Below, piece after piece: positions 2,706 to 59,140 of a stretch of 64,000 nt of DNA. Origin of the DNA: Brachybacterium sacelli (GTDB lineage Bacteria; Actinomycetota; Actinomycetes; Actinomycetales; Dermabacteraceae); the NCBI RefSeq assembly GCF_017876545.1, contig NZ_JAGIOD010000001.1:2046001-2110000 (forward strand), written 5' to 3'. Positions within the stretch are counted from its first letter, which is position 1. Every line of letters begins with the position of its first letter. The notes beneath the pieces are model-generated. The model had not been told where the DNA came from, ran no database searches, and saw only the letters and a program-made list of their open reading frames with translations. Position numbers and translations under genes: made by a program.

Positions 2706-3952
2706 TGGCATCGATCCCGGCAGTCGGCTCCGTCCCGCTGACCCGCCGCGCGGGTGGACCCGACTTCGCACGCGGCCTCGCGCTGCTCGGCATCGCCCTG
2801 GCCAACACCGTCGGCTGGCTGCACGGCTCGCAGTGGACCGTGCTGCTGAAGCAGCAGGACGCCGCCGGGTGGGACCGGGCGGCCGACGTGCTGATCGCCT
2901 TGACGGCCGACAACCGCGGCTTCCCCCTGTTCGCGATGCTCTTCGGCTACGGCCTCGGCATCCTGTACCGCCGCTCCCGCGAGCACGGAGAGCGCACCGG
3001 CCGCTTCCTGATGCGCATGCTGCGACGTCACGTGGTGCTGCTGGCGATCGGGGTGGCTCACGCGATCCTGCTGTTCCAGGGAGACATCCTCGTCTCCTAC
3101 GCCCTGGTGGGGATGCTCTGCGTGCTGCTGATGACCCGCCATCGCGCGGCGCTGCCGCTGGCGGGCGTGCTCGCCCTGCCTGCGCTGGGCGTGTGGGGCT
3201 GGGCCGACGGGATCATCGGTCTGTCCTCCGGGGACGGCTACGCGGCGGCCGCCGCCGATGACTACCTGAGCGGTCTGCGTCTGCGCACCGAGTCCGCGGC
3301 ATCGGAGGTGGCCACCGGCCTGCTGACCGATATCGGACTGCTCGCCCCGATGGCGATCGGAGCGCTCGCGGCGCGGGTGCGCCTGTTCGAGGAGGCCGCC
3401 GCCAACCATGACGTGCTGGTGCCCCTGGCCCGCTGGGGGCTCGGGATCGGCCTCGTGGGCGCGGTGCCCCTGACCGCCGTGCTCGTCGTCGACCCCGCGC
3501 ACCAGATCCTGGACTCCGAGACCGTCCTCGGCCTCCTCGGGCTCGTCCACCAGTACACGGGTCTCCTCGGCGGGCTCGGCCTCGCCGCGGCCGCGGCGCT
3601 GCTCGCCGAGCACGTCCGGAACCGGGAGGCACGACCGCTGGCCGGCGTGGTGCACGGCATCGAGGCCCTGGGGGCGGTCTCGCTGAGCGCCTACGTGGGA
3701 CAGTCCGTCGTCTTCCACGCCCTGTTCCCGCCCTACACCCTGGACCTCGGCGAACGCTCCGGCATCGCAGGCGCAGCGGTGATCGTGGTGGTGACCTACC
3801 TGGTGATGATCCCGCTCGCCGTCGCCCTGCGTCGCGGCGAGCACCGCGGACCGCTCGAGGTGGTGCTGCGACGTCTGGCAGGCTCGAGCACGCCTCGCCG
3901 CGGGACCGTCCCGACCAGCGCGGCGCGCCGAGCACCCGGAGGCCGCCCGTGA
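2705..3952 (+). CDS. DUF418 multi-pass membrane protein
   Basis: A 415-residue integral membrane protein with about eight to ten hydrophobic helices. The N-terminal segment 'RAGGPDFARGLALLGIALANT' (residues 15-35) and the later 'GALSLSAY'-like 'LGAVSLSAYVGQSV' are typical of DUF418 proteins, whose biochemical role is unknown. Its ATG overlaps the rnhA stop and its TGA overlaps the GTG of the DUF4031 gene, so rnhA, this gene and the next are almost certainly one translationally coupled operon. The C-terminal 40 residues are basic and probably cytoplasmic. Confidence 0.85.
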   Translation: MASIPAVGSVPLTRRAGGPDFARGLALLGIALANTVGWLHGSQWTVLLKQQDAAGWDRAADVLIALTADNRGFPLFAMLFGYGLGILYRRSREHGERTGRFLMRMLRRHVVLLAIGVAHAILLFQGDILVSYALVGMLCVLLMTRHRAALPLAGVLALPALGVWGWADGIIGLSSGDGYAAAAADDYLSGLRLRTESAASEVATGLLTDIGLLAPMAIGALAARVRLFEEAAANHDVLVPLARWGLGIGLVGAVPLTAVLVVDPAHQILDSETVLGLLGLVHQYTGLLGGLGLAAAAALLAEHVRNREARPLAGVVHGIEALGAVSLSAYVGQSVVFHALFPPYTLDLGERSGIAGAAVIVVVTYLVMIPLAVALRRGEHRGPLEVVLRRLAGSSTPRRGTVPTSAARRAPGGRP

Positions 3953-4506
3953 CCGTCTACGCCGACACCCCGCGCTGGCCGCGCCACGGCATGCTCTGGG
4001 GTCACCTGATCTCCGACACCTCGCTCGCCGAGCTGCACGAGACCGCGGCACGCGCCGACCTCCCCCTGCGCTCCTTCGATCTCGACCACTACGACTGGCC
4101 CGGAACCGCTCGGGAACGGCTGGTCGCTGCCGGGGTCACATTCGTCGGCAACCGGGAGCTGACCCGGGCCCTGATCGGCTCCGGCCTGCGGATCCCGCTG
4201 GTCGACCGGCCCGCTGCCCGGGTTCGCCGCAGCGCCGAGCACGCGGCGCAGCTGGGTCTGGCCGAGGTGCCGCGGGATCTCATCGTCGGGCTGCTCGGTC
4301 ACGTCGATCCGCTGCCGGCGCCGGGACGAGCTCGCCCCGGCGCCTTCCGCATGACCCGGGACGACCTCTCCGCCCCGCCGCGCATCGAGGCGCACGACGA
4401 GAGCGGACGCCGTGCCGCGATCGCGCTGCTGACGCAGTTGGACGAGCTCGCGCGGGCCGCGGGCGCTGCGGGCTTCACCGGCCAGGTCCTGGAGCTCGGC
4501 ACCTGA
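3949..4506 (+). CDS. DUF4031 domain protein
   Basis: A 185-residue protein opening with VYADTPRWPRHGMLWGHL and SFDLDHYDWP. These match the conserved N-terminus of the small DUF4031 family, common in actinobacteria and of unknown function. The GTG start overlaps the previous TGA by 4 nt (GTGA). A rho-independent hairpin follows at 4514, so this is the last gene of the operon. No signal peptide or membrane segment is visible. Confidence 0.82.
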   Translation: MTVYADTPRWPRHGMLWGHLISDTSLAELHETAARADLPLRSFDLDHYDWPGTARERLVAAGVTFVGNRELTRALIGSGLRIPLVDRPAARVRRSAEHAAQLGLAEVPRDLIVGLLGHVDPLPAPGRARPGAFRMTRDDLSAPPRIEAHDESGRRAAIALLTQLDELARAAGAAGFTGQVLELGT

Positions 4507-51319: not shown

Positions 51320-51602
51320 GGTGAGTCTTTCGAAGTGAGGTGGCGGTCGGGTTAGACCGGCACGCGTGCTCACTGACCGCGATCAACGTCGCGCAGTCGC
51401 ACCCACTCGAAGAGGAAGGCGTCGAAGTAGTGAGCTACCGGCGTACCGGCAGCTCGACCTTGGACGCTTCGGGAGAACTCACTGAACCACCATAACCGAG
51501 CCCCGGACTGACACGCACAGCGGTGTCACGCGCAGCGTCGCCAGGTACGTCTCGAACTAGGGAACCCCACCAGGACAGCTACTCGCAGGTCGTTTACGGT
51601 TC

Positions 51603-51673
51603 CCAATAGGGCCCGAGAACGCATTTTTGCGACACTTCTGTCGGGCTGGGTATACCTCAACGGAGCAGTTCCA
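51603..51673 (+). repeat. Repeat R1 copy 1: promoter-like box with internal palindrome
   Basis: Reads CCAATAGGG, then CGAGAACG, then TTGCGA-N18-TATACC, with CGACA/TGTCG arms between the two boxes, then CTCAACGGAGCAG. A close relative lies at 53752-53810, continued at 57932 after IS3-B. This copy is uninterrupted and shows what the IS3-B target looked like. Confidence 0.65.
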
Positions 51674-51687
51674 CCCGTCCACATAAG

Positions 51688-51712
51688 ACGGTGGTCTCAA
51701 CCGGTCAACGCA
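51688..51712 (+). repeat. Repeat R2 copy 1 (25 bp)
   Basis: A 25-bp sequence starting ACGGTGGTCTC and ending GGTCAACGCA, identical to 52660-52684. The two copies lie in direct orientation on either side of the HAD gene. Confidence 0.75.
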
Positions 51713-52659: not shown

Positions 52660-52684
52660 ACGGTGGTCTCAACCGGTCAACGCA
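52660..52684 (+). repeat. Repeat R2 copy 2 (25 bp)
   Basis: Identical to 51688-51712. The 972-bp period from copy to copy contains only the HAD gene. Confidence 0.75.
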
Positions 52685-52787: not shown

Positions 52788-53501
52788 CTAGCGGGGCGGA
52801 GGAAGCGCCCGGTCCTTGGAAGCGAGAATGGTGATGGAGACCGGGACGTCCTTCTCACCCGGTTCCGTGACCCTGTCGATCCGAAGGCCAGCGTCGACGA
52901 AGGCGTTCAGAAACTCCGCGAGGGGAACTTGGCGCATGCCGCCGACTTTGTACCGTATGCCACCCTCTCCCCACCAGGGGGCAGACTCATGTCGTCGTGC
53001 CTCGCGATAGGTCGTGTGTACGACCAACTCTCCTGCGGGGAGGCTGTGTACATGTGGTCCGTTGAAGCACGGGTGCACTCCGTAGAACATAAACATCCCC
53101 GTGGGGCGCAGAACTCGTGCGGCTTCCCTGACCATGCGGCTGAAATCGTCGACGTCCGTGGACGTCCAGGCGCTCATGACCAGATCGAAGGACTCGGAGT
53201 CGAATGGGAGGTCCTGGGCGTCGCCCTGGTGTACTCGGGGGCATCGCTGACGCGCCAGGCGAAGCTGGTCCTCAGAGATGTCGACGCCGGTTGCGGTCCA
53301 GCCGAGTTCTTCGATGATGGCGAGGTTCCTGCCTGTGCCGCACCCGATGTCCAGGCACGTGCCGGATCCTCGCGGGAGGGTCTCGCGCAAGACCGCGTCT
53401 CTGTGGGGACCTTCCGCCATCTGGGCGTCATACCAGTCTGCGAGGCCGTCGTAGCGAGCTCGGCTATCTGGGATGTTCGGTGACCTCGTCGGCGAGTTCA
53501 T
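52788..53501 (-). CDS. Class I SAM-dependent methyltransferase
   Basis: A 237-residue Methyltransf_11-type enzyme. Motif I is CLDIGCGTGRNLA (residues 49-61), the motif II acidic residue is in TGVDIS, and DAQDLPFDSESFDLVMSAW and VREAARVLRPTGMFMFYG complete the core. The HPCFNGPHVH segment is distinctive. Substrate unknown, possibly a small molecule. Stands alone between R2 and R1 repeats. Confidence 0.9.
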   Translation of the reverse strand: MNSPTRSPNIPDSRARYDGLADWYDAQMAEGPHRDAVLRETLPRGSGTCLDIGCGTGRNLAIIEELGWTATGVDISEDQLRLARQRCPRVHQGDAQDLPFDSESFDLVMSAWTSTDVDDFSRMVREAARVLRPTGMFMFYGVHPCFNGPHVHSLPAGELVVHTTYREARRHESAPWWGEGGIRYKVGGMRQVPLAEFLNAFVDAGLRIDRVTEPGEKDVPVSITILASKDRALPPPR

Positions 53502-53810
53502 GCAAGAAGCCTATCGAAGTCCTCGCCTGCCAGACCGGTACAACTCTGCCCCACGCCGTCGAGAACTCGTCGTCGGCGACGATGCAGCACTGGAGGACGA
53601 ACCGTCCCGGGATTGATGCCGCCGCTGTTGGAGTCGAGGTGCATCAGCAACACCCCAAAGAAGGACGCGCCTCAGCTGACCGCACGAGGCCGCCAGCGGA
53701 CGTGTCCGGAAGATGGGTACCCCAGCGGTACAGTTGCGGCCGAGTGACGTGCGGTTGCCAATAGGGTTCGAACGTGTACTTTTGCGACACATCTGTCGCA
53801 CGGGGTATAC
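53502..53810. other. Gene-free interval ending in repeat R1 copy 2
   Basis: Nothing codes convincingly between the methyltransferase start and IS3-B. The right 60 bp are R1 copy 2. Confidence 0.45.
53752..53810 (+). repeat. Repeat R1 copy 2, left part, cut by IS3-B
   Basis: CCAATAGGG, CGAACG, then TTGCGA (53782-53787), 18 nt, TATAC (53806-53810). GCGACA and TGTCGC (53784-53789, 53794-53799) form a 6-bp-arm palindrome between the boxes. IS3-B inserted after TATAC; the right part resumes at 57932 with the duplicated TAC and CTCAATGG. Confidence 0.65.
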
Positions 53811-53819
53811 TGAATCGCC

Positions 53820-54121
53820 TGTAAGTGTTCGTGGTGGCCGGCCCGGGGCTGGCTGGCAGGGTTGGTGCTGGTAGCCCGGCGCCCGTCGTGACTCCTGAAT
53901 CGGCTGACCCCTACGGGGTGTCATTCCCGGGATCTGTCCGGCGGGGGCCGGGTGCCGGCGCCAGCCCTGGCCCACCACGATGGCTTGATCAGAAGCATGT
54001 CCACCGCCGGAATCACGATCCCGGCGGCGTGGCTCATTACAGGCCCGCCTCGTAGTGACTCTCATCCTGGGCCGACGCCGGCAACGACGTCCCGTCCCAG
54101 CGATTCGAGAGGAACATCGTC
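53820..54121 (+). ncRNA. Putative IS110 bridge RNA region, left copy
   Basis: 302-nt non-coding 5' region with two loop systems. Target loop: TGAATCG (53896-53902), then a hairpin CCCC-TAC-GGGG (53908-53918), then CCCGGG (53926-53931). These equal or pair with the two halves of the IS3-B terminal repeat. Donor loop: AGAAGCAT (53991-53998), then a hairpin built on CCAC.GCCGG / CCGGC.GTGG (about 54002-54032), then TTACAGG (54037-54043). The first equals the IS110 right end and the second is the reverse complement of its left end plus core (CCTGTAA). Confidence 0.75.
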
Positions 54122-55204
54122 ATGAACAGTCTGCCTGCCACCGTAGGGGACTTCTACCGATATGTCGTCGGAGTCGACACCCACGCCGCAACCCACTCCT
54201 ACGCGATCATCAAGGCCCCGAACGGCGGTCTCATCGATCAGAACGTCTTCCCGACCAGCCCTGCAGGGCTGCGACGCGCACGAGACTGGATCTCACGCCG
54301 AACCGAAGGCGACCTCGACGATGTGCTGATCGCCGCGGAAGGAACTGGCTCCTACGGGGCAGTTCTCAGCGACGTGCTGCAACAAGCGGGGTACCGAGTC
54401 GTCGAGGCACCGACCCCGCGTCGTGCACGAGCCCGAAGCAAGACTGACGCCCTCGACGCGATGCTCGCCGCCCGATCGAGTCTCGTCATGCCGTTGACGA
54501 AGTTGCGAGATCGTCGCGCCGGTGAGCTGCAGTCGGCGCTTCAGGTGCTCACGGGTGCCCGCGACCAGCACAACGCCGACAGATTGCGGTGCATCAACGC
54601 GCTCACCGCCCTCGTTCGGACCCACGACCTCGGCATCGGCGCCCGCCGAGCCTTGACCGGAACGCAGATCGCGACGATCGTGAGCTGGCGTCGCCGCGAG
54701 GAAACACTCGGCGCAGCAACCGCCCGCGCTGAAGCGACACGCCTCGCGAAGCGGATCACGACGCTCGAGAACGACCTCGCCGAGAACCGTGAACAGATCA
54801 CTCGCATCGTGGAGACCACGGCTCCCGAGTTGCTGGACTTGCCAGGAGTCGGCGCGGTTACCGCAGCCGTGATCTTGACGGTCTGGTCGCACCCCGGGCG
54901 AATACGCAACGAGGCCGCATTCGCCATGATCGGAGGAATCTGTCCGATCCCGGCTTCCTCGGGCAACACCACGAGGCATCGCCTCAACCGCGGTGGGGAC
55001 CGACGGCTGAACCGCGCGCTGAACACCATCGTGCTCACCAGGATGCGCACCGACCCTGCCACCCGCGCCTACATCGAACGGCGCCAAAGCGAGGGCAAGA
55101 CATCCAGAGAGATCCGACGCTGCCTCAAGCGCTACATCAGCCGCCAGATCTTCCGATCGCTCGCAGTTGCCCACCCCGCCCCGGACGCCGCCGCCGCGGC
55201 TTGA
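54122..55204 (+). CDS. IS110-family transposase/recombinase, left copy
   Basis: A 360-residue DEDD recombinase guided by a bridge RNA. The RuvC-like N-terminal domain has D19 (VVGVDTH), E73 (AAEGTGSY) and D109/D112 (KTDALDA). A coiled-coil middle follows, then the C-terminal Tnp domain with LPGVGAVTAAVIL and the candidate nucleophile Ser at 279/280 (PIPASSGNTTRH), followed by RGGDRRLNRAL. Length is slightly below typical. Identical to the right copy. The TGA stop is 16 bp from the element end. Confidence 0.95.
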   Translation: MNSLPATVGDFYRYVVGVDTHAATHSYAIIKAPNGGLIDQNVFPTSPAGLRRARDWISRRTEGDLDDVLIAAEGTGSYGAVLSDVLQQAGYRVVEAPTPRRARARSKTDALDAMLAARSSLVMPLTKLRDRRAGELQSALQVLTGARDQHNADRLRCINALTALVRTHDLGIGARRALTGTQIATIVSWRRREETLGAATARAEATRLAKRITTLENDLAENREQITRIVETTAPELLDLPGVGAVTAAVILTVWSHPGRIRNEAAFAMIGGICPIPASSGNTTRHRLNRGGDRRLNRALNTIVLTRMRTDPATRAYIERRQSEGKTSREIRRCLKRYISRQIFRSLAVAHPAPDAAAAA

Positions 55205-55230
55205 CACAACATAGAAGCATCCCGGGTTTG

Positions 55231-56163
55231 TTAGAGGCTCGCAAGTGCCGCGTCGGCGGGTGCCGGTGCGGGGTGGTTGTGATGGTAGGTGTCCTCGAGC
55301 TCGACGGGCGGGATCATGCCGATCTCGCCGTGCAGACGCCGGTGGTTGAACCAGTCGATGTACTCTGCGGTCGCGATCTCGAGGTCGTCGATGTTCTTCC
55401 AGGGCCCGCGGTTGCGGACCAGTTCGGCCTTGAACAGCGAGTTGAAGGCCTCGGCCAGGGCGTTGTCATACGAGTCGCCGGTGGAACCGACCGAGGCGAC
55501 CGCGCCGGCCTCGGCAAGTCGCTCGGTGTAGCGGATGGCGACGTATTGAACGCCCTTATCGCTGTGATGCGTGAGCCCGGTGACGGCCTGGCCTGCGTGA
55601 TCGCGGGTCCAGATGCCCATCTCCAACGCGTTCAGCGCAAGATCTGTCCGCAGCGATTTCGACAGCTGCCAGCCGACCACGCGGCGGGAGAACACGTCGA
55701 TGATGAACGCCGCATACACCCAGCCGGCGAAGGTTCGGCAGTAGGTGATGTCCGCGACCCACAACTGGTTCGGAGCGGTTGCCGTGAAGTCCCGTTCGAC
55801 CAGGTCAGGACGACAATCCGGACCGCGACCGGGGATCGTGGTGCGCGGGCCTTTGGACCGGCTGATCCCACGTAGCCCTGCGACGCGCATGAGTCGCTCG
55901 ACCGTGCAGCGCGCCACCGAGATGCCCTCCCGCCGCAACTGCGCATGGACCTTCTTTGCCCCGTAGACGCTGAAGTTCGCGGAGTGGACCCGGCCGATAT
56001 CGACCAGTAGCTCCTCGTCGCGCAGTGCTCGCTTCGAGGGCGGGCGGGCCTTGCTCGCGTAGTACGTGCTCGGCGCGATCTGCGTACCCGCTGCGGTCAG
56101 CGTCCGACAGATCGGCTCGACGCCGAACTCATGCTTGTGCTGGTCTATGTACTCCACGATCAA
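55231..56163 (-). CDS. IS3-B transposase orfB (DDE integrase domain)
   Basis: A 310-residue protein. The HTH_21 region is IGRVHSANFSVYGAKKVHAQLRREGISVARCTVERLMRVAGLRG. The rve domain has D in LWVADITYC, D in THHSDKGVQYVAIR and E in NALAEAFNSLFKAEL, all catalytic residues present. YIDWFNHRRLHGEIGMIPPVELEDTYH closes it. Although the reading frame is intact, both element ends are split by IS110, so this IS3 is probably immobile. Confidence 0.94.
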   Translation of the reverse strand: MIVEYIDQHKHEFGVEPICRTLTAAGTQIAPSTYYASKARPPSKRALRDEELLVDIGRVHSANFSVYGAKKVHAQLRREGISVARCTVERLMRVAGLRGISRSKGPRTTIPGRGPDCRPDLVERDFTATAPNQLWVADITYCRTFAGWVYAAFIIDVFSRRVVGWQLSKSLRTDLALNALEMGIWTRDHAGQAVTGLTHHSDKGVQYVAIRYTERLAEAGAVASVGSTGDSYDNALAEAFNSLFKAELVRNRGPWKNIDDLEIATAEYIDWFNHRRLHGEIGMIPPVELEDTYHHNHPAPAPADAALASL

Positions 56164-56486
56164 CGCTGTGGGCGGTCGAGCTCCGCCGCGAAAAAAGCCG
56201 AGGCCGACCTCAGGATCGAGTTCGCCCGGCGCAGCTCACGCACTTCCTTCTCCAGTTCGATCAAGCGCTGGGACTCGCTAGTCGTGGTTCCGGGACGGTA
56301 TCCCTCGTCGACCTCGGCCTGCACGACCCAGTTCCTCAGAGTCTCGGGATTGATCCCGAGCTGCTCGCCCACACGACGGAACGTGCCCGACCTCGTCGAT
56401 GGATCCCGTCGCGCCTGAACAGCCATCCTCGTGGCTCTTTCCCGAAGCTCGTCCGGGTACTTCCTCGGTGCTGCCATGTTCCTCAT
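56160..56486 (-). CDS. IS3-B transposase orfA
   Basis: A 108-residue HTH_Tnp_1 protein (KYPDELRERATRMAVQARRD, GINPETLRNWVVQAEVDEG) with a leucine-zipper region (RLIELEKEVRELRRANSILRSASAFFAAEL). It overlaps orfB by 4 nt, with a T-rich slip site near 56190 on the coding strand, as in frameshift-using IS3 elements. Confidence 0.92.
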   Translation of the reverse strand: MRNMAAPRKYPDELRERATRMAVQARRDPSTRSGTFRRVGEQLGINPETLRNWVVQAEVDEGYRPGTTTSESQRLIELEKEVRELRRANSILRSASAFFAAELDRPQR

Positions 56487-56537
56487 CCTCCCGTGGATTC
56501 AGAGCCTCCACCAGACCCGGGATGCTTCTATGTTGTG

Positions 56538-57620
56538 TCAAGCCGCGGCGGCGGCGTCCGGGGCGGGGTGGGCAACTGCGAGCGATCGGAAGATCTGGCG
56601 GCTGATGTAGCGCTTGAGGCAGCGTCGGATCTCTCTGGATGTCTTGCCCTCGCTTTGGCGCCGTTCGATGTAGGCGCGGGTGGCAGGGTCGGTGCGCATC
56701 CTGGTGAGCACGATGGTGTTCAGCGCGCGGTTCAGCCGTCGGTCCCCACCGCGGTTGAGGCGATGCCTCGTGGTGTTGCCCGAGGAAGCCGGGATCGGAC
56801 AGATTCCTCCGATCATGGCGAATGCGGCCTCGTTGCGTATTCGCCCGGGGTGCGACCAGACCGTCAAGATCACGGCTGCGGTAACCGCGCCGACTCCTGG
56901 CAAGTCCAGCAACTCGGGAGCCGTGGTCTCCACGATGCGAGTGATCTGTTCACGGTTCTCGGCGAGGTCGTTCTCGAGCGTCGTGATCCGCTTCGCGAGG
57001 CGTGTCGCTTCAGCGCGGGCGGTTGCTGCGCCGAGTGTTTCCTCGCGGCGACGCCAGCTCACGATCGTCGCGATCTGCGTTCCGGTCAAGGCTCGGCGGG
57101 CGCCGATGCCGAGGTCGTGGGTCCGAACGAGGGCGGTGAGCGCGTTGATGCACCGCAATCTGTCGGCGTTGTGCTGGTCGCGGGCACCCGTGAGCACCTG
57201 AAGCGCCGACTGCAGCTCACCGGCGCGACGATCTCGCAACTTCGTCAACGGCATGACGAGACTCGATCGGGCGGCGAGCATCGCGTCGAGGGCGTCAGTC
57301 TTGCTTCGGGCTCGTGCACGACGCGGGGTCGGTGCCTCGACGACTCGGTACCCCGCTTGTTGCAGCACGTCGCTGAGAACTGCCCCGTAGGAGCCAGTTC
57401 CTTCCGCGGCGATCAGCACATCGTCGAGGTCGCCTTCGGTTCGGCGTGAGATCCAGTCTCGTGCGCGTCGCAGCCCTGCAGGGCTGGTCGGGAAGACGTT
57501 CTGATCGATGAGACCGCCGTTCGGGGCCTTGATGATCGCGTAGGAGTGGGTTGCGGCGTGGGTGTCGACTCCGACGACATATCGGTAGAAGTCCCCTACG
57601 GTGGCAGGCAGACTGTTCAT
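56538..57620 (-). CDS. IS110-family transposase/recombinase, right copy
   Basis: 360 residues, identical in sequence to the left copy with all catalytic positions retained, indicating a recent duplication. Confidence 0.95.
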   Translation of the reverse strand: MNSLPATVGDFYRYVVGVDTHAATHSYAIIKAPNGGLIDQNVFPTSPAGLRRARDWISRRTEGDLDDVLIAAEGTGSYGAVLSDVLQQAGYRVVEAPTPRRARARSKTDALDAMLAARSSLVMPLTKLRDRRAGELQSALQVLTGARDQHNADRLRCINALTALVRTHDLGIGARRALTGTQIATIVSWRRREETLGAATARAEATRLAKRITTLENDLAENREQITRIVETTAPELLDLPGVGAVTAAVILTVWSHPGRIRNEAAFAMIGGICPIPASSGNTTRHRLNRGGDRRLNRALNTIVLTRMRTDPATRAYIERRQSEGKTSREIRRCLKRYISRQIFRSLAVAHPAPDAAAAA

Positions 57621-57922
57621 GACGATGTTCCTCTCGAATCGCTGGGACGGGACGTCGTTGCCGGCGTCGGCCCAGGATGAGAGTCACTACGAGGCGGGCC
57701 TGTAATGAGCCACGCCGCCGGGATCGTGATTCCGGCGGTGGACATGCTTCTGATCAAGCCATCGTGGTGGGCCAGGGCTGGCGCCGGCACCCGGCCCCCG
57801 CCGGACAGATCCCGGGAATGACACCCCGTAGGGGTCAGCCGATTCAGGAGTCACGACGGGCGCCGGGCTACCAGCACCAACCCTGCCAGCCAGCCCCGGG
57901 CCGGCCACCACGAACACTTACA
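57621..57922 (-). ncRNA. Putative IS110 bridge RNA region, right copy
   Basis: Mirror copy of the left one. The target guides are at 57840-57846 (TGAATCG on the minus strand) and 57811-57816 (CCCGGG). The donor guides are at 57744-57751 (AGAAGCAT) and 57699-57705 (TTACAGG). Confidence 0.72.
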
Positions 57923-58007
57923 GGCGATTCATACCTCAATGGCGCAGCAGATCCATCTAGCACTCGAGCGCCGGCGACAGACAAGGTTGGGACGGTAGAT
58001 TGCTTGG

Positions 58008-58724
58008 ATGACACACAACGGAGTAGGTCGAAACGGAGCGCCGGAGTCTCTACGGGTCGGCCACGACGATCTCGAGCCCGGGCCCCATCCGGTCGGGAGC
58101 GAGGTGACGATCCGCAGTGTGGAAGGTGTCCCCGGGCGACGCGCGGTGGGGTTCGCCGTTGCCGGGGTCGTCCTGCACGACGATGATGAAATGACGGTGG
58201 TCGCGTCGATCTCAGGCTCGGACAAAGCTGAGAGAGCTGGGGAGCGCGCGGGGCCGCGAGGTCGCAACATCATCGATTCGCTCTGGAATGGTTCCTACAC
58301 CCTCGGGGTCTGGGACGGCGAGTCCGTGGTCAGGATTCATCAACGCGGACAGTGCTGGTCGATCTGGCGGTTCCATGACGGCCATGACTGGAGTCGAGCC
58401 TGGTACGGAAATCTGGAGGCGCCATGGAGGCGAACTGAGATGGGCTACGACACCCAGGACTGGACGCTCGACGTCGTTGCTGACGGCATGCCCGGAACCG
58501 ACGACTGGGAAGTGAAGCTCAAGGATGAGGACGAGCTTGATTGGTTCGTCGACCAGGGGGTCTACACCATTGAGCAAGCCGAGAGCATTCGCGAGGTCGG
58601 GCAAACTTTGTCGGAGGCAATGAGCTCGGCCGGACTCGACGAAGAGAGGAAATGGAGCACCTGGGCTCCCCCACGCGATGCGCAACCCTCCTCACTGGCG
58701 GATGGCTGGCGACACCTGACTTAG
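58008..58724 (+). CDS. DUF402 (FomD-like) protein
   Basis: A 238-residue protein. The C-terminal two-thirds match DUF402: WSIWRFHDGHDWSRAWYGNLEAPWRRTEMGYDTQDWTLDVV and EVKLKDEDELDWFVDQGVYT, with the conserved Asp/Glu/Lys cluster that binds metal and nucleotide in FomD-type phosphatases. Substrate unknown. Its presumed promoter (R1 copy 2) lies about 75 bp upstream in the ancestral arrangement and is now separated by IS3-B. Confidence 0.85.
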   Translation: MTHNGVGRNGAPESLRVGHDDLEPGPHPVGSEVTIRSVEGVPGRRAVGFAVAGVVLHDDDEMTVVASISGSDKAERAGERAGPRGRNIIDSLWNGSYTLGVWDGESVVRIHQRGQCWSIWRFHDGHDWSRAWYGNLEAPWRRTEMGYDTQDWTLDVVADGMPGTDDWEVKLKDEDELDWFVDQGVYTIEQAESIREVGQTLSEAMSSAGLDEERKWSTWAPPRDAQPSSLADGWRHLT

Positions 58725-59140
58725 CAGCACCTCGACAGGAACATCAACTGCACAAATAGGCGTGGGCGACGAGTACGAGCACTCTCTCCTGAAGAGGCTG
58801 TTGCGAACCTTCTCGCGCGACTTGCTGGAGGACGGGCTCAGGGGATCTGGCAGTGGCTGAGGCCGCAGGCGCCTCCTGCTACCGACCGTTCATGACGCAC
58901 TCGCTCATGCGAGGTACAGGTGCCCTGTGGTGATAGCTCACTGTTCAGTGCGTGATGATTGTCAGACCTTCATCGATTGATGGCTCCTCGAGCAGCTCGG
59001 CCAGATGTTCATTGCCGGCTCGGTCCACCGGATGGGAGAATGCCGACTCCGACTCCATGCGGATCTCGGCCCGTCGGGAGGATTCGTCGATGGATGTGGT
59101 CAGGTGATGTAGGAAGACGTCAGCTCCGATGCGGCGCGCG
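58725..59140. other. 415-bp interval with a minus-strand gene remnant
   Basis: A frame on the minus strand from 59140 to the TGA at 58945 encodes about 65 residues (ending EHLAELLEEPSIDEGLTIITH). It is open into the IS256 end, so it may be the 3' part of a gene cut by IS256. No domain recognised. Nothing else is seen. Confidence 0.4.

Follow-up and report, generated by a model that had tools for sequence, protein, structure and literature searches.

What brings two identical insertion sequences into the two ends of a third? In the stretch of DNA analysed here (64,000 nucleotides of Brachybacterium sacelli, hereafter the window, in a genome of 4.87 Mb in two contigs), both terminal repeats of one intact-looking IS3-family element are occupied by identical elements of the IS110 group. 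We are highly confident that these IS110-group elements carry, at their left end, a bridge RNA that guides their insertion into IS3-type ends.

The whole IS3-family element spans positions 53811-57931 of the window and carries OrfA, OrfB and an ALIL pseudoknot. Copy 1 of the IS110-group element (53820..55221, forward strand), delimited by comparing its junctions with element-free IS3 ends, extends from the TGTAAG of the right donor part to position 55221, where the shared core C lies; the counterpart of this C is at 53819. Copy 2 occupies the other end of the same IS3 (56521..57922, reverse strand) and was found as the inverted repeat I1; the two copies, each of about 1.4 kb, thus lie in inverted orientation, and within the compared 1430 nt they differ in three bases, all located in the IS3 end. 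The body of the IS3 between the insertions (55222..56520, reverse strand) matches the Pfam domains HTH_Tnp_1, HTH_21 and rve; OrfA (56160-56486) and OrfB (55231-56163), both on the reverse strand, were assigned by Pfam, and the ALIL pseudoknot (RF01497; 56071..56199, reverse strand) scores 71.2 bits (gathering score 50). Full-length copies of this IS3 are present in relatives, the nearest ones being 92% and 91% identical.

The left part of the target, TGAATCGC plus the shared C (53811..53819, forward strand), is the outer tip of the IS3 terminal repeat. It is preceded by TAC (53808..53810), and TAC also follows the right end (57932..57934, both read on the forward strand); a 3-bp target duplication is expected of IS3 elements. 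When an empty insertion site was sought in the genus, the left flank was found uninterrupted in one genome (G016), but the sequence diverges after GTATAC; because that flank continues differently past this point, the case for IS3 insertion rests on the TAC duplication. The insertion point coincides with the exact GTATAC end of an intergenic repeat some 60-70 bp long (CCAATAGGG..TTTTGCGACACNTCTGTCG..GGGTATAC), which occurs in dispersed copies at 51597-51668 and 53752-53810 and again on contig 2 at 94447. A 256-base query that contains this repeat has matches in 9 of the 37 other genomes of the genus; the repeat is possibly a recombination or cassette boundary. In the same region, GGTGGTCTCAACCGGTCAACGCA occurs as an exact repeat at 51690-51712 and 52662-52684, 972 bp apart, bracketing a HAD-hydrolase gene, and five more sites in the genome match it with 3 mismatches.

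The recombinase of 360 amino acids (54122..55204, forward strand) matches DEDD_Tnp_IS110 (E 4.6e-17) and Transposase_20 (E 1.7e-18) in Pfam and aligns to the solved IS621 recombinase 8wt6 (E 2.8e-8), with E73, D109, D112 and S280 numbered via this alignment. D19, which lies outside the printed alignment, was assigned by motif and is presumably part of the same set. The DEDD (RuvC-like) domain, together with Transposase_20 and its predicted catalytic serine, places the element in the IS110 family. The non-coding sequence amounts to 302 nt 5' of the recombinase gene as against 17 nt 3' of it, so that the element shows the arrangement of the IS110 group, in which a long left end holds the RNA ahead of the gene and the right end is short. 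We rejected the IS1111 group, in which the RNA is at the right end: the right end here is only 17 nt long and the RNA model matches the left end only. There is no target-site duplication beyond the core, both junctions giving the IS3 end of the relatives with one shared C. Assignment to the IS621 subgroup, with its CT core common to donor and target, was likewise rejected, given that only C is shared here.

A first-pass annotation had proposed that the 302-nt region is a bridge RNA with a target loop followed by a donor loop, on the strength of four segments, and all four are present: TGAATCG at 53896, CCCGGG at 53926, AGAAGCAT at 53991 and TTACAGG at 54037 (a further CCCGGG at 53842 is unrelated to the guide). 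In 20,000 dinucleotide-preserving shuffles of 53820-54121, TGAATCG recurred in 1.9%, CCCGGG in 46%, AGAAGCAT in 0.08% and TTACAGG in 0.27%, and all four together in none. The proposed two-loop layout is borne out by the fold, by covariation in relatives and by the placement of the guides. RNAalifold applied to an alignment of the upstream regions of 15 relatives (alignment A1) predicts two stem-loops with internal loops, comprising 36 pairs, 15 of these with compensatory changes; shuffled alignments yielded 10.1 such pairs on average and reached 15 in 1 of 500 cases, in a comparison where the structure was predicted from the same 15-sequence alignment. A covariance model (R1) built on this fold matches copy 1 at 53882..54058 (forward strand) with 192.7 bits, the window sequence being part of the training set of the model, and copy 2 at 57684..57860 (reverse strand); at E up to 1e-6, 58 genomes out of 396 in the order contain matches. 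In two larger alignments, which were fitted to the predicted structure, 92.2% and 89.9% of the cells are paired, and compensatory change is seen at 28 and 27 pairs, respectively.

The alignment folds place the target guides on either side of inner hairpin 1 and the donor guides on either side of inner hairpin 2, as in IS621 (PMC11208160). The first-pass annotation had named a covariance fold with its segments in stems rather than loops as one result that would refute it; in the folds obtained, internal loops hold the donor guides and the greater part of the target guide. Only one helix would bury target-guide bases (A1 columns 12-16 with 54-59). Although 88% paired in A1, it is the least conserved helix of the larger alignments, with 70.7% and 64.5% of cells paired compared to 86.7-98.9% for the other helices. 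The minimum-energy folds of the window sequence by itself (z -5.85 and z -2.36) pair parts of the guides; the loop layout rests on the alignments. An Rfam search of window positions 53000-58800 at E up to 1 recovered no bridge-RNA family, the IS3 ALIL pseudoknot being the sole match, and a scan of genome contigs gave one locus only.

In the window element (copy 1, forward strand throughout), the left target guide UGAAUCGGC, corresponding to target positions 1-9, is at 53896..53904, with G at position 8 mismatching the C of the window IS3, and the right target guide CCCGGG at 53926..53931 is complementary to the shared C plus CCGGG. The adjoining AU (53932..53933) is complementary to donor A7T8. 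In the second loop, the left donor guide AGAAGCAU (53991..53998) is followed, beyond the hairpin, by the right donor guide UUACAG (54037..54042), which, judged from the letters, is complementary to C-TGTAA, and by GC (54043..54044), complementary to target G7C8.

The junctions define what donor and target have in common. Element-free IS3 termini in the relatives read TGAATCGCCCCGGG, with four C, in 13 of 14 cases and TGAATCGCCCGGG in one, in a scripted scan of 10 loci that counted only ends fitting TGAATCG.CC+GGG. The left TGAATCGC-C and the right C-CCGGG together yield this common IS3 end, and therefore a single base, C, is shared. The first-pass annotation had seen guide, target, donor, core dinucleotide and product together at this locus; guide, target, donor and product stand, and the core dinucleotide CC gives way to one C. 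A CC core was rejected, as the element-free IS3 ends show only one C common to donor and target. Accordingly, the proposed target TGAATCG-CC-CGGG is one C short of the prevalent end, TGAATCGC-C-CCGGG, and in place of a donor junction with CC, both junctions imply AGAAGCAT-C-TGTAAG, the extra C of the proposed donor being the base where the donor loop matches the target.

If the loops are guides, they should change together with the flanks of the insertions, and they do. We compared guides and flanks in 113 of the 115 model matches (L039:191-357 and L041:70-221 were left out), 100 of which yielded a left junction and 79 a right junction; guides were taken by alignment column, left junctions were located by the donor guide and right junctions by the conserved donor end, so that the target guides were not used. 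In a coarse test with one random representative from each of 20 clusters of similar guides, the left guide matches its own flank in 6.65 of 9 positions, compared to 2.45 under permutation (sd 0.37, highest 3.8 of 2000), and 7.46 as against 3.59 (highest 5.0) when the best of three registers is taken. The right guide matches in 4.0 of 6 positions as against 1.65 (sd 0.38, highest 3.07), among the approximately 12 clusters with a right end. With finer clusters (30, from 74 unique rows, L157 left out), eight left positions match at 0.72-0.84 compared to 0.26-0.31 under permutation, and five right positions at 0.73-0.91 compared to 0.25-0.33 (22 clusters); for these eight and five positions, none of the 5000 permutations is as high. 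The ninth, outermost left position matches at 0.28 as against 0.24, and two further right positions show nothing in the 22 clusters. The left donor guide follows the donor of the right end at position 6 (0.95 vs 0.36) and position 3 (0.95 vs 0.73), with no match to the donor at position 7 (0.09, permuted 0.11); the right donor guide has no independent covariation figure, having served to locate the left junctions in the relatives. Thus, both target guides covary with the target, and the left donor guide covaries with the donor. These elements are related, and permutation among clusters corrects only partly for their kinship. In the fixed left register, low scores of 1-4 of 9 were obtained, among the matches listed (at most three per guide), for L035, the L088 type (L088, L089, L112), L039, L082, L040, L043, L114, L125, L126, L150, L163 and L169; some of these appear to carry a shift or a deletion of one to three bases.

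The bases next to the guides show a different pattern. In the numbering of IS621, as given in the sections of the IS621 study available to us (PMC11208158), the core consists of positions 8-9 and the cut follows position 9. In the present lineage, position 9 is C in both donor and target. In the donor, 79 of 80 right ends have T at position 8 and one (L150) has C, and target position 8 can be any base (T 26, A 23, G 13, C 12 in 74 unique left junctions). The right-end search first required T and was then relaxed; among the 88 elements with a readable gene end, nine lacked a right end by the first rule, and the relaxed search of these nine identified C for T in L150 and TC kept behind an altered motif in L042 and L135, and none in the other six. 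The donor loop matches the target, at position 8 (0.75 vs 0.28) as well as at position 7 (0.77 vs 0.25), with 0 of 5000 permutations as high across the 30 clusters; its position-8 base is identical with that of the left junction in 52 of the 74 unique rows and with the T of the donor in 22. Conversely, at position 7 the target loop agrees with the donor (0.93 vs 0.47, no permutation as high; 22 clusters). At position 8 the target loop is nearly invariant and shows no covariation with the donor (0.86, permuted 0.86), its base being complementary to the T of the donor in 45 of 49 unique rows and to C in 4; it slightly follows the target there (0.42 vs 0.28, 0.12% of permutations as high). At position 6, the donor loop shows nothing against the target (0.23, permuted 0.25), and the signal of the target loop against the donor is weak (0.37, permuted 0.21). 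Covariation thus demonstrates crosswise encoding at position 7 for both loops, and at position 8 for the donor loop but not for the target loop. In the window element, all four bases fit, the target-loop AU pairing with donor A7T8 and the donor-loop GC with target G7C8.

Both junctions were counted for 49 unique insertions. All of these have T at the right end, as the search required, with one exception added by the relaxed search, and in 32 of the 49 the left base is other than T. T on the right and the target base on the left is the arrangement that a top-strand cut after C9 would leave. We cautiously favour the view that this lineage recombines DNAs sharing a single obligatory base, C9, with the loops encoding the recombined strands crosswise rather than the substrates, which would extend the IS621 handshake into the core, and that several branches guide to other insertion sequences (IS3 ends, and rve-type and ISL3 transposase genes). 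A two-base overlap was rejected at other targets: with exactly one base shared, the joined frame is open and a Pfam match spans the junction (ISL3 in L088, rve_3 in L084 and L130). If the core were instead C plus the next base (CT in the donor, C plus a variable base in the target), this would suit the letters of IS621; the guide lengths and the handshake covariation at position 7 fit such a core less well than N-C. The parts of the IS621 accounts available to us describe covariation of the non-cognate loops at position 7, named handshake pairing, and a CT core in both DNAs (PMC11208158; PMC11208160); handshake at position 8 with differing cores was not met in those parts, and we make no claim for the literature as a whole.

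How closely is the element tied to IS3? The target motif TGAATCGNCCCGGG occurs 49 times in the 38 genomes of the genus, in 20 of these genomes, and the reversed control pattern 0 times; the window genome contains no exact unoccupied TGAATCGNCCCGGG. Thirty of the 49 places were taken as loci, giving 35 site rows, with two sites represented by two rows each. In 27 rows the locus contains a match to IS3 OrfA/B, in another 3 the sequence runs on as an IS3 end that lacks an ORF, 2 reach the contig end just past the motif, and 3 are without sign of IS3. Two IS3 types are found at these sites, one of them with proteins about 42% identical. Within the guide class of the window element (23 rows, 11 of these cut off or unreadable at the right end), the IS3 terminal repeat, matched at 19-25 of 25 bases, adjoins 9 of the 12 copies with a readable right end, including the two in the window; one of the other three has an IS3-type orfB alongside, and two have neither. 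The IS3 repeat is therefore the commonest but not the sole site of the guide class. The first-pass annotation had named relatives with the same guides in unrelated targets as another observation that would count against it; relatives with the same guide are mostly in the same target, and other guides go with correspondingly different targets.

The genome of the window contains four copies of the element (and one weak 41-base match): the two in the window, a complete copy on contig 2 (L003; 72949-74364) with a tRNA-Pro gene alongside, and a shortened copy on the other contig (L004). All four are preceded by TGAATCG, followed by C in the window copies, T in L003 and G in L004. No IS3 was seen beside L003, in its right flank, or beside L020. 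L003 sits in TGAATCGTC..CCGGG and has on its other side an ORF that, by eye, resembles a peptidoglycan hydrolase. Since L003 is located at TGAATCG without an IS3, the element homes to a sequence, of which IS3 ends are the commonest carriers.

Other branches of the lineage enter other genes. Among 27 joined sites viewed, 8 were chosen for Pfam: L088 lies in an ISL3 transposase gene (E 1.9e-35 across the junction), and L084 and L130 lie in rve-type transposase genes, with rve_3 across the junction (E 1.9e-15 and 1.3e-14). L041 (rve_3) and L138 (HTH_29) fell below the Pfam cut-off, and no Pfam match was obtained for the joined sites of L152, L118 and L170. Copies of the L096 type (L096-L101 and L104-L110), several in each of two genomes (G166 and G153), are apparently inserted in palindromic repeats with a REP-like pattern, as seen by eye. 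A plasmid of Rhodococcus sp. WAY2 carries a bridge-RNA match (L044, 2562-2729) without an annotated IS110 gene behind it, directly upstream of an annotated IS3-family transposase (2882-4113). An Arthrobacter plasmid (L039, 191-357) contains a second bridge-RNA match of 69 bits about 1.2 kb upstream of the studied copy, overlapping an annotated transposase.

These targets bear on an account in which the recombinase itself recognises IS3 ends and the likeness of the non-coding region to target and donor reflects inherited sequence rather than a guide. Among the closest relatives such an account is hard to tell from guiding, as they keep both the donor and the TGAATCG target, so that covariation is invisible among them; across 20-30 guide clusters, however, the loop changes with the target, including targets other than IS3 (the ISL3 gene of L088 and the rve-type genes of L084 and L130), and we consider recognition by the recombinase itself extremely unlikely. 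A separate issue is the number of guided insertions at the window locus. Both copies could have arrived as one composite (an IS110-IS3-IS110 unit), or the second by recombination, with a single guided insertion, and the identity of the copies over the element and the intact outer target-site duplication are compatible with such a history. However, each copy has an IS3 end of its own, which it splits exactly where its guide would place it, and the two ends are not alike in their IS3 parts. Moreover, double occupancy recurs in a second genome (G021; L078 and L033 around IS3 pieces, 1297216-1300195) with other outer flanks; that locus, where no matching 3-bp duplication was found outside on reading by eye, may be rearranged. 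On balance, a composite or recombinational origin appears unlikely.

It is also conceivable that the host benefits from the insertions, in that they would inactivate IS3 copies in a guided manner. In favour of this, the IS3 looks intact apart from the splitting of its two ends, and the genome retains no exact free target; nevertheless, selfish homing to multicopy, harmless sites gives the same pattern, and we regard host benefit as very unlikely, though less so than recognition of the ends by the recombinase.

Insertion guided by the bridge RNA would, by analogy with IS621, proceed as follows. The left end would be transcribed into the bridge RNA, whose internal loop 1 would pair with the IS3-family terminal repeats, TGAATCG-N-C-CCGGG, and internal loop 2 with the joined ends of the element itself, AGAAGCAT-C-TGTAA. 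The donor would be AGAAGCATCTGTAAG, the joined ends with the one-base core reading AGAAGCATC-TGTAAG. Recombination would be RNA-dependent and involve a circular intermediate: the DEDD/serine recombinase would hold both DNAs, cut the top strands after the shared C and exchange the strands, presumably aided by the handshake of the target-loop AU with the donor AT and of the donor-loop GC with the target GC. As to the order of events, the IS3 probably inserted first, with TAC as its target-site duplication, and was then entered by two identical copies, one per end; the copies are inverted because the IS3 ends are inverted. With both ends split, the IS3 is likely to be immobile.

Homing of elements of this family to the ends of other transposons has precedents. 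IS4321 and IS5075, of the IS1111 group, are reported by Partridge and Hall (2003) to occupy terminal repeats of the Tn21 family, and IS1383 is said by Muller et al. (2001) to insert into the inverted repeats of IS1384 in Pseudomonas putida. As far as the accessible parts of these accounts go, IS4321/IS5075 resemble the window element in being same-family elements that home to the terminal inverted repeats of another transposon and differ from it in having the RNA at the right end, subterminal inverted repeats and another target; IS1383, which is of IS1111 type judging from where it is cited, also has the inverted repeats of an insertion sequence as its specific target, with another host and another target. 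Among the titles and abstract openings in the part of the literature searched, we found no IS110-group element in IS3 ends. According to the sections of the IS621 papers available to us (PMC11208160; PMC11208158), the window element shares with IS621 the recombinase domains, the left-end RNA with the target loop preceding the donor loop, the left guide corresponding to the top strand and the right guide to its complement, the guide lengths and the position-7 handshake. In contrast, IS621 has a CT core in both DNAs and inserts in REP elements, whereas the window element shares one C with its target, position 8 differing (T in the donor), and inserts in an IS3 end. ISEc21, also of the IS110 group, has an upstream non-coding RNA and a natural target in IS3-family elements; unlike the window element, it is described in the available part of the source (PMC11187229) as hitting not the terminal repeat but the transposase gene, in the region of the second D of DDE. 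Both the mechanism class (PMC11208160; PMC11208158; PMC11187229) and homing to transposon ends are thus known, to the extent covered by these partial sources.

The locus described here brings guide, target, donor and product together in nature, and the lineage supplies many guide-target pairs. The way in which guide RNAs of IS110 elements choose their targets can be seen with unusual clarity at this site and in its relatives. An IS110-group element homes to IS3 ends and probably immobilises the IS3 that it enters. If the crosswise encoding of the core is true, the requirement for an identical core dinucleotide would relax to one base in this lineage, and the strand that determines the product could be read from natural insertions with differing cores.
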